Shown here piece after piece: positions 2,247-9,529 of a stretch of 13,906 bases of DNA. Location: positions 1 through 13,906 of the forward strand of contig VBHV01000106.1 of NCBI GenBank assembly GCA_005881995.1, given 5' to 3'. The translations under genes and the position numbers were made by a program. The DNA is from Chloroflexota bacterium. GTDB taxonomy: Bacteria > Chloroflexota > Ktedonobacteria > Ktedonobacterales > Ktedonobacteraceae. The notes beneath the pieces were generated by a model. It saw only the letters and a list, made by a program, of their open reading frames with translations. It was not told the DNA's origin and ran no database searches. How positions within the stretch are numbered: the stretch's first letter is position 1; every line of letters begins with the position of its first letter.

Positions 2247-2852
2247 ATGCGAACCTTGTTGCTGGCGACAACCAACCAACATAAGTTGGAAGAGTATAAC
2301 GCCATCTTCTCGCATCTGCCCGTAATCTTACGGTCACTACGCGAGGTTCCCTTAGAGATGGATGTGGAGGAAACCGGCCAGACCTTCGCCGAAAACGCGC
2401 GCATAAAAGCGCTCGCCTATGCTCAGGCGACAGGAATGCTGAGCCTCGCTGATGATTCTGGCCTGGAAATAGATGCGCTTGGCGGCGCTCCGGGAATTCT
2501 CTCCGCCCGCTTTGCGGGGAGAGATACCCCTTATCAAGAGCGCTTCCGCCTTATTTTGGAGCAGTTGAAAGGCCTGACAGGAGCGCAGCGCGCGGCACGT
2601 TTCCGCTGCGCCATCGCGCTGGCTGAACCCTCTGGCTATTGTCGCGTAGTGGAGGGCGTCATTGAGGGGGTGATCGCTGATCGGCCACGCGGGGCACATG
2701 GCTTTGGCTATGACCCCATATTCCTGGTACCTGAACTTGGGAAAACAATGGCTGAATTGACGCCCGAACAGAAAAATCGTATCAGTCATCGTGGGCGCGC
2801 GGCCCAGTTGGCCCGTGTTCTGCTTGAAATTTGGCCCTATCTCCATCGGTAG
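2247..2852 (+). CDS. rdgB: RdgB/HAM1 non-canonical purine NTP pyrophosphatase
   Basis: The 201-aa product is a full-length member of the Ham1/RdgB (inosine triphosphatase) family. These cytosolic enzymes hydrolyse dITP, XTP/dXTP and ITP to the monophosphate plus pyrophosphate, keeping deaminated purines out of DNA and RNA. Family motifs are present: TTNQHKLEE at 8-16 (substrate loop with Asn10 and Lys13), ETGQTFAENARIKA at 42-55, ADDSGLEIDALGGAPGI at 68-84 (metal-binding acidic residues), HGFGYDPIF at 151-159 and ISHRG at 179-183 (base recognition). Length is typical. The ATG at 2247 is chosen because residues 3-13 are the conserved N-terminal strand and loop; the upstream purines (AGAAAGAA) make a weak ribosome-binding site. 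Only 47 bp separate it from the downstream exonuclease gene on the same strand, so an operon concerned with nucleotide and DNA quality is likely (inference). Confidence 0.95.
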   Translation: MRTLLLATTNQHKLEEYNAIFSHLPVILRSLREVPLEMDVEETGQTFAENARIKALAYAQATGMLSLADDSGLEIDALGGAPGILSARFAGRDTPYQERFRLILEQLKGLTGAQRAARFRCAIALAEPSGYCRVVEGVIEGVIADRPRGAHGFGYDPIFLVPELGKTMAELTPEQKNRISHRGRAAQLARVLLEIWPYLHR

Positions 2853-2899: not shown

Positions 2900-5800
2900 A
2901 TGGCAAAAAAGCCTCCTATCCGCGTGGCGCTTGACCTGGAAACGACAGGGTTGCATGCAGAACAGGATGCCATTCTTGAGGTCGCGGCCATCAAGTTTCA
3001 AGGCACGATGGTTCTTGACAAAATGGAGACACTGGTTGCGCCTGGGCGTTCCATTCCTTTTCGCGTGCAGCGGCTCACCGGCATTACCCCCCAGAAAATC
3101 GCGGACGCCCCCGCCTTCGAGTCCATTGCCGGGCAGTTACAACAGTTCTTAGGAGAGTATCCCATCGTTGGCCACAGCATTCCTTTCGATGTCGGCTTCT
3201 TACGCCGCCGCGGCCTCGTGCGCAACAACGCCCTGATCGACACCTTTGAACTGGCCACCGTTCTGTTACCCTCTCTCTCCAGCTATAACCTGGGTCAGGT
3301 CGCCCTTGCATTAGGCGTACCCGTCGCACCTGGGCGGCACCGTGCGATGGTAGATACCATCCTGGCAATGGAAGTATTTTTAGCCCTGCATCGCCTGCTC
3401 CAGGCAGTGGATACGCCTATTCTCAAAGACCTGGCACATCTCGATGCGCCGCGTACCTGGCCCCTGCTGGGCTTCTTTCGCCAGGAATGGCGCGACCGTA
3501 TGGACCAGGATGGACTGCAGCCCGGCTCCCTGCGGGGCAACCTGGGTGACCGCTTCGCTGCTCAGTTGGGGATGGACCCGCGCATCTTATCCTTCGCAAT
3601 GGCGCGCCAGGTCGGAGTCCCCGCTGAAGAGGAGCAGCCAGGAGCTGGCGAGCAAAGCGATGGAGCGATCCCGGTGCTGGCAAACGGCAACGGCGCGCCG
3701 CAGGATAGTGTTCCCTCCCTGGAGGTACTGAGTGAAGCGCCCATCGTGAGTGCCCTGCAGACATTAGTGGAAGTCATTCCCGAAGAAATACCCCAGATGG
3801 GTAGCCCTGAGCCAGCGGAGGAAGAGCGACCAGGCAGCCAGCACCCGCAGCAACCCCTACAAGCCGGATATCAGACGGCCTATAGCGCCATACGGCAGAC
3901 CCTCTATGAACGAACTCAGCTCCTCGTGGAAGTGACGGTGGGCGCCAATGACTATACTCCCGCCTTGCTGCCCGCCCTTGAATGGTTAAGTGACGGCGCG
4001 CATCCTTCTGAAGCCACTAGCACTCCTCGCTGTCTGGTGATTGCCTGTGCAAACCAACAGGGAGCGCGTCGTTTAACTGAGACCGTTTTGCCGCGTTTGC
4101 AGGCGTCGCTGAAAACGTCGTTGCCTGTAGCCTACCTGGCTGAACGTGGCGGCTATCTGTGTGTGCATCGCTGGTTTGGCTCGGCCCTGCGCCGCACCAG
4201 TGGTGAATTGTCGGCGGAGCAGGCGCGCGGATTGGCAAAACTGGGACTGTGGGCGCAGCAAACCCTCACAGGAGAACGCAGTGAATTAACCCTCTTGCCC
4301 CAGGAAATAGCAGCGTGGGAACGTATCTCCTCGGGCGTCGAGCGCGTCTCGCTTACACTGCCGGATGGACGCACAGAAACCCCTTATCAGCGTTGCCTCT
4401 ATCGCAAAAATGGCTACTGCTTTGTCGGTCGTGCCGAAGAGCGCGTCAAAGCGGCAAGCATCGTGGTCACCACCCACGCCGGGTTGCTTGATGATCTCTC
4501 TTCTCCACGTTCCCTGCTCAGTGGCGTCACACACCGTTTGATTCTCGATGCAGACCTGTTGGAGGAAGAGTCCGCGCGCTGGAGCAGCGTCGAACTTGAT
4601 TACACACGCCTGCTTGAACTCCTGAATACCATTGGGGCTGAACTGCCCAATGGACGCTACCAGGGGTTGCTGGCGCTGGCCGCGCCCGCTTTGCGTGAAA
4701 ACGGTCCGGGGGGTCTTTCAGCAACACCCACCGTGGAAAAATCTGCCCTTGATGCACGTATGCTTTCATGGTTTCAGGCATTGCGGCAGGCGCGTACAGC
4801 CGTTGATACTCTGTTCAGCGCATTGGGACATCTACTACAGGAAGGAATCAACGGGGGCTCGCGCGATAAGAGCAAGCAGGAGAATCTTGGCCGTGGAGGG
4901 CGTGCCATCGAGCGCATCGATCAACCGTTGCGGCTGACGGCGCAGATGCGCAACATGGCAAGCGGGATGGAAGTAGAGCACACCTGGCAGCAAACCGCCC
5001 AACGTCTCCAGGCGGTCATCAATTTCGTACACGAAGCGGAAAAGATCATGCTGGCGACCCGGCGCAGCCGTCACCGCCTCGACGCGGGCAGCAGTGACGA
5101 TGAATCGCTCGCCTGGGAACTGGCCGAGCTTGCCCGGCGCCTGCTTGAGCAGAAGCAGTTGGGGCAGCGCGCTTTCATGCAGGGCAATGCGGCAGGTGAA
5201 GAAGACCGCATCGTCTACTGGCTCCGCGTTCCCCCCGCGCCTCCTCCCTTTGCGCAACAACGCCTGGTCGAGCCTGCGGCTGTGCAGTCCCTACCGCAAA
5301 CGCACGCGCCTGAAAGCGTGCCAGTACTGCATGCCCAGGATGTGCAGACTCCAGCTTTCATGAAACAACATATTCTCACCCCTGGTGTGAGCAATATCTT
5401 CGCGGGAGTTGCTCTCTCCGTTGACCATAATTTTTCATTCTATCGTGGACGCTATGGGCTGGATGCTGATGTCTGCCCGGCGCTCTCGGTAGTCACCGAG
5501 CATCACGAACAAACCCTGCTTTATCTGCCCAATGACGTGCCAGAGCCGAACGCGCCGCAGTACCAGCGACACCTGGATGACGCCATCACGCAGCTTGCTA
5601 CTTCTCTGGATGGTCAGCTCGTCGTCCTGTTTACCTCGTATGCCGCTCTGCGCAGTTCCTACGCAGCGGTCAAACCACTCCTGGAAGCGCGTGGGATACT
5701 AGTCTTAGGACATGGCGTCGATGGCTCGCCGCGCCAGCTCTGGCAGATGTTCTCCGATCAAGAACGTGTGGTTCTGCTTGGCACAGGCAGCTTTTGGGAT

Positions 5801-6148
5801 GGCACCGACGAAGTCAGCCGCCCACCCGCTTGTATCCTGGTGGCTCGCCTGCCCATGCCGGTTCTCAACGACCCGCCCATCGCGGCCCGCGCCGAACACT
5901 ATTCCGATCAACTCCACCAGGTGACGGTGCCCATGGCCTCCCTGCGCATGCGCCGCGCCCTCAATCGCTTAGCATGGAGCGGCGACAAACGCAATGCCGT
6001 CGTGCTATTTGATCGCCGCATCATTTCAAAAGAGTACGGCGCGACCGTCCTGCATACCCTCCCCCGCTGTTCACAACGCCAGGGCGCCATCTCCCACATG
6101 CCTGAAATTGTACTCGACTGGTTGACGGCTACCGGCTCCTGGGAGTAA
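2900..6148 (+). CDS. DEDDh exonuclease fused to a catalytically degenerate DinG/XPD-like helicase body
   Basis: This 1082-aa protein starts with a DnaQ/DNA polymerase III epsilon-type 3'-5' exonuclease domain (about residues 7-165) with every catalytic residue: Asp12 and Glu14 in LDLETTG, Asp97 in GHSIPFDVGF, His147 and Asp152 in HRAMVDT. A linker (about 235-320) leads to a DinG-like SF2 helicase region with DinG order and spacing but broken ATPase motifs. The Walker A position (343-358) has Asp351-Tyr352 where GK(S/T) is expected, the DEAH box is DADL at 550-553, and motif VI (1018-1026) lacks the Gln and the arginine-finger Arg. Motif V (GSFWDGTD, 963-970) survives. Three Cys (421, 499, 507) align with iron-sulfur cluster ligands of DinG; a fourth is missing. 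The frame is uninterrupted for 3.2 kb, arguing for selection. Exo-DinG fusions are known in Firmicutes, including the S. aureus protein reported as a nuclease without helicase activity. AAGGA at 2891-2895 is a weak, close ribosome-binding site. Likely a DNA/RNA 3' exonuclease with a scaffold or nucleic-acid-binding module. Confidence 0.88.
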   Translation: MAKKPPIRVALDLETTGLHAEQDAILEVAAIKFQGTMVLDKMETLVAPGRSIPFRVQRLTGITPQKIADAPAFESIAGQLQQFLGEYPIVGHSIPFDVGFLRRRGLVRNNALIDTFELATVLLPSLSSYNLGQVALALGVPVAPGRHRAMVDTILAMEVFLALHRLLQAVDTPILKDLAHLDAPRTWPLLGFFRQEWRDRMDQDGLQPGSLRGNLGDRFAAQLGMDPRILSFAMARQVGVPAEEEQPGAGEQSDGAIPVLANGNGAPQDSVPSLEVLSEAPIVSALQTLVEVIPEEIPQMGSPEPAEEERPGSQHPQQPLQAGYQTAYSAIRQTLYERTQLLVEVTVGANDYTPALLPALEWLSDGAHPSEATSTPRCLVIACANQQGARRLTETVLPRLQASLKTSLPVAYLAERGGYLCVHRWFGSALRRTSGELSAEQARGLAKLGLWAQQTLTGERSELTLLPQEIAAWERISSGVERVSLTLPDGRTETPYQRCLYRKNGYCFVGRAEERVKAASIVVTTHAGLLDDLSSPRSLLSGVTHRLILDADLLEEESARWSSVELDYTRLLELLNTIGAELPNGRYQGLLALAAPALRENGPGGLSATPTVEKSALDARMLSWFQALRQARTAVDTLFSALGHLLQEGINGGSRDKSKQENLGRGGRAIERIDQPLRLTAQMRNMASGMEVEHTWQQTAQRLQAVINFVHEAEKIMLATRRSRHRLDAGSSDDESLAWELAELARRLLEQKQLGQRAFMQGNAAGEEDRIVYWLRVPPAPPPFAQQRLVEPAAVQSLPQTHAPESVPVLHAQDVQTPAFMKQHILTPGVSNIFAGVALSVDHNFSFYRGRYGLDADVCPALSVVTEHHEQTLLYLPNDVPEPNAPQYQRHLDDAITQLATSLDGQLVVLFTSYAALRSSYAAVKPLLEARGILVLGHGVDGSPRQLWQMFSDQERVVLLGTGSFWDGTDEVSRPPACILVARLPMPVLNDPPIAARAEHYSDQLHQVTVPMASLRMRRALNRLAWSGDKRNAVVLFDRRIISKEYGATVLHTLPRCSQRQGAISHMPEIVLDWLTATGSWE

Positions 6149-8102: not shown

Positions 8103-8453
8103 ATGAACTTATATGAACAATTGGTAGTGGTACGTGAGCGTCTGGAGGGTATCGGCGCGCATGATAATAGTATGGATCTGGTGGAGAAGCTCTTACGCAA
8201 AGCTGAACCTGCCAGGGGCGACAAAACGAACATCACCCAGGTACAGGTGCTGCGCCACATGTTGCGCATGCCCGAAGTCATCGATGACTACAACGTCTAC
8301 AACGACCTGCAAGAACTGCTGAGCGAAAGGGACGAGATGGAGGTCAGCAGGAACGAGGATGCGGCTCCTGCGGCGTATGTAGACACGGAACGGCATCCAA
8401 AGCCAAAGTCATTCTACAAAGCCAAAAAGGAACGAGAGAAAAAGAAAGGCTAG
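8103..8453 (+). CDS. Hypothetical small protein with basic C-terminal tail, 116 aa
   Basis: I do not recognise this protein. The first ~77 residues look helical and amphipathic (NLYEQLVVVRERLEGIG; VQVLRHMLRMPEVIDDYNVYNDLQELL). They are followed by an acidic, alanine-rich linker and a very basic end (KPKSFYKAKKEREKKKG) that could bind nucleic acid or ribosomes. There are no Cys residues, signal peptide or membrane segments. The start is firm: AGGAGGAGAG at 8087-8096 lies 6 nt before ATG at 8103. It has its own promoter 45 bp upstream and is convergent with pspA, whose terminator U-tract is encoded on the opposite strand of this gene's Lys-rich codons. The strong ribosome-binding site and separate promoter suggest good expression. 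Confidence 0.82.
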   Translation: MNLYEQLVVVRERLEGIGAHDNSMDLVEKLLRKAEPARGDKTNITQVQVLRHMLRMPEVIDDYNVYNDLQELLSERDEMEVSRNEDAAPAAYVDTERHPKPKSFYKAKKEREKKKG

Positions 8454-9451: not shown

Positions 9452-9523
9452 GCGGGTTTGGTGTAGTGGTAACATGCGACTTTCCCAAAGTTGAGATCAC
9501 GGGTTCAAATCCCGTAACCCGCT
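9452..9523 (+). tRNA. tRNA-Gly (anticodon CCC)
   Basis: The cloverleaf folds fully. The acceptor stem GCGGGTT (9452-9458) pairs with AACCCGC (9516-9522). The D stem GTGT/ACAT has an AGTGGTA loop with the GG pair. The anticodon stem CGACT (9477-9481)/AGTTG (9489-9493) encloses loop TTCCCAA, placing anticodon CCC at 9484-9486. A 5-nt variable loop follows, then T stem ACGGG/CCCGT with loop TTCAAAT. The discriminator base is T at 9523, normal for bacterial tRNA-Gly, and CCA is not encoded (CCC follows). It reads GGG codons and is transcribed as a single-gene unit. Confidence 0.96.
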
Positions 9524-9529
9524 CCCGCT

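Follow-up and report, generated by a model that had tools for sequence, protein, structure and literature searches.

A class-wide ExoDinG family of Ktedonobacteria with a complete exonuclease centre and erased ATPase motifs

The locus and its predicted fold

The window (the whole stretch of 13,906 bp that was analysed, from contig VBHV01000106.1 of a Ktedonobacteraceae genome) carries on its forward strand an intact frame of 1082 codons, as the initial annotation had described, and encodes an exonuclease-DinG fusion (ExoDinG) in which three ATPase motifs are erased. The features are as follows, with residues numbered along the window protein.

2247..2852, forward strand: RdgB/Ham1-type nucleotide pyrophosphatase gene, 47 bp upstream of the ATPase-dead ExoDinG gene
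2900..6148, forward strand: ATPase-dead ExoDinG, 1082 aa, ATG start (open reading frame, Pfam and structure prediction)
2924..3379, forward strand: DEDDh 3'-5' exonuclease domain, residues 9-160 (D12, E14, D97, H147, D152)
3617..3859, forward strand: low-confidence linker, residues 240-320 (pLDDT <65 in ten-residue blocks)
3929..3955, forward strand: erased Walker A, residues 344-352, EVTVGANDY (EAGTGTGKS in intact relatives)
4160..4420, forward strand: Fe-S-like region, residues 421-507 (C421, C499, C507 and H423 invariant, second Cys gone)
4544..4555, forward strand: erased DEAH box, residues 549-552, LDAD (many deeper-branching members have LDAH)
5588..6064, forward strand: second motor domain, PF13307, residues 897-1055
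5954..5977, forward strand: erased motif VI, residues 1019-1026, RALNRLAW (QGFGRLIR in intact relatives)

Pfam matches over cut-off were PF00929 (RNase_T/DEDDh, residues 9-160) and PF13307 (Helicase_C_2, residues 897-1055), whereas the DEAD or DEAD_2 half, which Pfam recognised in the motif-intact relative L091, gave no match in the window protein at E up to 1. The helicase fold that had been proposed for the body was recovered by structure prediction through a match to S. aureus DinG, and the predicted structure and the sequence together describe a DinG/XPD motor body with an arch and a domain at the Fe-S position. Over the whole query this match had a Foldseek TM-score of 0.57-0.58, with an rmsd exceeding 10 A, and the domains may therefore be arranged differently from those of S. 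aureus DinG. Among the best 120 of 723 matches, identity to the window protein was 67-99%, and the named ones were Ktedonobacteraceae or carried generic product names. The label "ATP-dependent DNA helicase DinG", which some sources use for proteins of this kind, is probably wrong.

Exonuclease site and ATPase motifs

We compared 197 rows of the ATPase-dead family with 135 rows of motif-intact ExoDinG, the latter being the best 120 matches of L091 plus 15 Chloroflexota loci. All rows were chosen by similarity to a dead or an intact query (the best 120 of 723, of 727 and of 7989 matches, with 12 and 15 loci added), so these counts alone cannot show that intact members are absent, a point on which the class-genome search, the tree and the per-genome motif reading bear instead. 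The five DEDDh catalytic residues, which the initial annotation had listed as present, were kept throughout the family (D12 in 193, E14 in 194, and D97, H147 and D152 in all 197 rows), and the few missing residues were alignment gaps. By these five residues the domain is that of an ExoDinG exonuclease.

The motor motifs gave the opposite picture in the two sets. Position 351 was Lys in 135/135 intact rows and in none of the 197 family rows, where Asp was found in 140; position 352 was Ser or Thr in 134/135 intact rows, while the family had Tyr in 130 rows and Ser or Thr in six. The replacement of Lys-Ser/Thr by Asp351-Tyr352 was thus read correctly from the window, and the GxGK[S/T] Walker A of DinG/XPD helicases is absent. 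In motif VI, positions 1019, 1022 and 1026 were Gln, Gly and Arg in every intact row; the family had Arg (137) or Gln (52), Asn (164) or Gly (33), and Trp (197 of 197), so that QGxGR occurred in 135/135 intact and 0/197 family rows. The reported erasure of motif VI (Arg1019, Asn1022 and Trp1026 in the window protein) therefore held across the family, with Arg1026 in no row, and QxxGRxxR is replaced by a motif with W1026 in all 197 rows and in 40/40 class genomes read. The DEAH box is likewise erased, as had been claimed, although not at 550-553 (DADL): two ungapped alignments (MAFFT, and a profile against S. aureus DinG) placed it one residue earlier, at L549-D550-A551-D552, which converts the Mg-binding Asp to Leu, the catalytic Glu to Asp and the His to Asp. 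Neither Asp549 nor Glu550 occurred in any family row, Leu549 stood in 191/197 and Asp550 in 196/197, and the His position kept its His in 53/197. A gapped reading, D-[E deleted]-A-H, was dropped because both alignments were ungapped and kept A551, L554 and E555 in register.

These changes suggest that ATP or nucleotide binding has been lost. A rebuilt P-loop (GANDYTP) might conceivably serve a non-canonical ATPase or hold another nucleotide ligand, since the predicted strand 340-346, loop 347-352 and helix from 353 retain the P-loop layout, GxxDY is the commonest form of the Walker loop in the family, and D550 is kept at the position of the catalytic Glu. We consider this very improbable, however, because the loop is not conserved in the deeper branches and the lysine is found at 351 in none of the 197 rows. 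The near or full invariance of L549, D550 and W1026 indicates that the site may have acquired a new use.

Fe-S-like site and DNA-contact residues

The Fe-S site has four cysteines in intact ExoDinG rows and in DinG/XPD Fe-S helicases, whereas the ATPase-dead family keeps three and has lost the second. C421, H423, C499 and C507 were each present in 197/197 family rows, and by class genome C421 and H423 were present in 42/42 and C499 and C507 in 41/41 of those read. H423 lies two residues after C421, where intact rows have Arg in 126/135 and His in 1/135, and no other position within 415-519 had Cys in more than 20 of the 197 family rows. A swap of the Cys ligand for His at H423 is our guess from this conservation.

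Five DNA-contact residues of the second motor domain have been named for S. aureus DinG (PMC12345164). The equivalents of three are kept (R983 in 197/197, R1040 in 197/197, Y1046 in 194/197), and two are changed: F804 corresponds to M986 in 136/197 rows (still Phe in 58), and F823 to L1005 in 138/197 (Gln in 55). With two of the five altered, strand binding may differ.

The invariant C421/H423/C499/C507 set and the arch could also mean that the body is mainly a platform for docking a protein or a metal, which directs the exonuclease to a partner (candidates being the separate DinG described below, the replisome or the ribosome) and binds the strand little. Further residues invariant only in this family, including W948 and W1026, fit such a platform, as does the reported action of Listeria DinG on immature rRNA (PMC12774634). 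Against it, R983, R1040 and Y1046 are almost invariant and the gene neighbourhood shows no partner besides the rdgB pairing, and we regard this reading as possible but rather unlikely.

Distribution, clade and selection

The family was found in 47/47 Ktedonobacteria class genomes, in G274 as the exonuclease part only and in G245 only up to the Walker A region. In a GTDB scan, a single-sequence query gave no loci and an alignment query gave 27, which include Ktedonobacter, Dictyobacter, Thermosporothrix, Thermogemmatispora, Tengunoibacter and Ktedonosporobacter. Wherever they could be read in the 27 loci, the motifs were dead (Walker A in 24, DEAH in 23, motif VI in 22); L021 and L022 were left out for their stops, and L018, L025 and L026, in which a contig end cuts the gene, for individual motifs. 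A locus was available for reading in 43/47 class genomes (G213, G237, G267 and G309 having no clean one), and of those read Lys351 was found in 0/40, Asp549 in 0/41, Glu550 in 1/41 and Arg1026 in 0/40, all of the last having Trp. The single Glu550 (G189/L062, a sequence type also seen in L018) lacks the preceding Asp. In the deeper loci, whose identity to the window protein is 35-42%, the Walker loop is wholly scrambled and the DEAH box is often LDAH. Close relatives with intact GKT and DEAH motifs, which would have spoken for a lesion of one strain, were thus not seen among the readable class loci of the family, and a strain-specific lesion was rejected because the motif loss is common to the relatives and the family is present in 47/47 class genomes.

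The 18 dead rows in the tree formed one clade with support of 100/100; the midpoint root of the tree serves for drawing only, and a long-branch warning applies to the joining of L085 with the DinG rows. One well-supported clade is what a single loss of the motor in an ancestor of the sampled Ktedonobacteria would produce. Outside the class, the DinG family was read at 37 loci of other Chloroflexota genomes. In L073-L087, L091 and L092, GxGK[S/T] was present in 16/17 (L073 has GKG), DEAH or DEGH in 17/17 and the exonuclease motif by pattern in 15/17; in L143-L162, of which L143 is close to L091, the corresponding counts were 18/20 (the other two being L155 and L160), 20/20 and 15/20.

Among 11 close pairs, dN/dS (NG86) ranged over 0.014-0.088 in the exonuclease and over 0.047-0.128 in the body, and the sequences indicate purifying selection on both. 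A decaying gene or an assembly artefact devoid of function could account for three motifs lost together and for the two of the 27 loci without a straight translation, and we give it almost no weight: the family is class-wide, 25/27 loci have no internal stop (three of these are cut by contig ends), and dN/dS is low. The ExoDinG region of the two exceptions, L021 and L022 (Dictyobacter kobayashii and one MAG), has 24 and 19 stops, which are either sequencing errors or a true lesion. With such conservation across the class, the observed motif pattern cannot be due to chance and, as this soil bacterium shares the erased form with its whole class, the dead motor appears to be a retained design rather than the result of gene damage. 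Judged from these alignments, the family is a real, conserved, class-wide pseudohelicase branch of ExoDinG.

Comparison with known DinG proteins

S. aureus DinG was reportedly called a nuclease without helicase activity by McRobbie in 2012. The initial annotation used it as a helicase-less precedent, which is outdated, as ATP-driven 5'-3' unwinding is now reported, which works best at 1-2 mM ATP and is inhibited above that range (PMC12345164), and the ATPase-dead family thus goes further than its precedent. In that report the S. aureus protein (PDB 8zef, 9ii8) has no Fe-S cluster, whereas the family keeps three of four cysteines and lacks the motifs. B. subtilis DinG is described as an ssDNA-stimulated ATPase, whose ATPase-deficient K290A form still cuts (PMC12525004), and Listeria DinG E465A is likewise described as retaining exonuclease activity (PMC12774634); natural loss of the ATPase is therefore compatible with a working nuclease. 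Within the same phylum, Chloroflexota ExoDinG (for example L091 and P0135) has the same domain order but, unlike the dead family, retains GKS, DEAH, QGFGRLIR and all four cysteines of the Fe-S site.

Among the ten DinG subgroups named in the consulted part of a review (PMC11981726), none is exonuclease-bearing and ATPase-dead. Cyanobacterial sDinG is described there as DinG-like without conserved ATP-binding residues, similar to the present family, and as consisting of MD1, MD2 and arch only, with neither exonuclease nor Fe-S domain, whereas ATPase-dead ExoDinG has the exonuclease and the region at the Fe-S position and so falls outside that subgroup. The pExoDinG subgroup also has the Exo-DinG layout with one half inactive and is the mirror image, its exonuclease being predicted dead and its ATPase site intact; the complete exonuclease centre separates the present family from it. 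The review files one protein of Ktedonobacterales bacterium SCAWS-G2 as ExoDinG, and its consulted part does not mention the lost ATPase motifs; strain SCAWS-G2 of Ktedonosporobacter rubrisoli corresponds to L005 of our set, in which all three motifs are dead. Utp25, a yeast ribosome-assembly factor, is also called a pseudohelicase (PMC9539457). In a literature search, no title among the matches listed dealt with an ATPase-dead ExoDinG. As far as the reports on S. aureus, B. subtilis and Listeria were consulted, they disagree on whether ATP is helpful, inhibitory or without effect, and a lineage without motor motifs whose fold is under selection is a natural experiment on the role of the helicase body in ExoDinG.

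The second DinG, rdgB and a proposed mechanism

A further PF13307 protein scoring at least 114 bits was present in 41/47 class genomes and in 12/12 genomes of a smaller check, while the dead proteins score 50-87 bits on this profile. The six genomes with no further strong DinG (G043, G109, G221, G260, G267, G274) reflect either incomplete assembly or real absence. We read 27 loci of the second DinG and found a DEAH box in 27/27, motif VI by pattern in 26/27 and a GK P-loop in 27/27, with GxGK[S/T] in 23/27 and GKA or GKG in L036, L129, L137 and L140. The exonuclease motif was found by pattern in none of the 27, although the pattern also missed the exonuclease of L041; for L035, L032, L037 and L028 (the last cut by the fetched stretch) its absence was taken from Pfam. 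In a phylum sample, at least two PF13307 matches were seen in 31 of the 37 class genomes with any and in 7 of 193 others (Fisher p 1e-25), counts made by eye that include weak matches, with a p value that ignores shared ancestry. In the class, loss of the motor coincides with the presence of a second DinG; both may date from one ancestor, and so may be one event and not many. We rejected the idea that the second DinG is a duplicate of the dead gene, since it forms a 100/100 clade of its own which does not adjoin the dead clade. B. subtilis similarly has an exonuclease-bearing DinG and an exonuclease-less paralogue, YpvA, in one cell, as reported in PMC12525004.

Three of the second DinG proteins carry an N-terminal Ser/Thr Pkinase domain (L035:1945-5115, residues 41-260; L032:2542-5964, residues 121-367; L037:2324-5497, residues 49-281), whereas the consulted part of PMC11981726 places a kinase-like domain of SCAWS-G2 at the C-terminus. 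Two further proteins of about 1850 aa with two Walker A motifs, L041:2704-8265 (Tengunoibacter) and L040:3000-8525 (Dictyobacter arantiisoli), are Exo-DinG-RecQ fusions in which an exonuclease and a DinG C-domain are joined to a second helicase, a DEAD/Helicase_C protein of RecQ type (RecQ_Zn_bind matched only below cut-off); the class therefore does not lack motif-bearing exonuclease-DinG proteins altogether.

The rdgB gene lies upstream on the same strand in 27/27 scanned GTDB loci and in 9/13 deeper loci, the misses (G085, G052, G021, G149) forming one basal clade; L070 and L072, whose contigs end at the gene, were left out of this count. None of the 17 intact loci showed it within the roughly 0.7-1.1 kb available upstream. 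In the window, the gap of 47 bp suggests that rdgB and ExoDinG likely share a transcript. A functional partnership was considered and kept as an association only, because rdgB is absent in the four basal genomes.

We propose, with a probability of about 70%, that this class-wide family acts as an ATP-independent 3'-5' exonuclease on a helicase fold that holds the strand. By its residues the protein would degrade single-stranded DNA and/or RNA from the 3' end and would neither bind nor burn ATP. Together with the arch and the Fe-S-like domain, the two motor domains would hold the strand in a fixed channel, whose lining R983, R1040 and Y1046 still match, and this channel may feed the 3' end to the exonuclease, while ATP-driven unwinding would be left to the separate DinG of the same cell. 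Trimming should then stop at a duplex and ignore ATP. The non-motor scaffold for an exonuclease suggested by the initial annotation is thus the best-supported reading, although that annotation had overlooked the second DinG, the pairing with rdgB, the correct register of the DEAH box, and His423 with the three conserved cysteines of the Fe-S region. More tentatively, the ancestral exonuclease-helicase may have lost its motor permanently and ExoDinG may have been split into two machines, an ATP-blind exonuclease on a frozen channel beside rdgB and a separate DinG, in several cases kinase-fused, to which unwinding was passed, with a re-liganded metal site of three Cys and one His replacing ATP as the control input.

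Elsewhere in the window, a 196-aa frame (466-1056) and a 116-aa frame (8103-8453) have no Pfam match at E up to 1, and a tRNA-Gly (CCC) gene lies at 9452-9525. The 116-aa product is 71-82% identical in many Ktedonobacteria loci, where PspA, on the opposite strand, often comes next.
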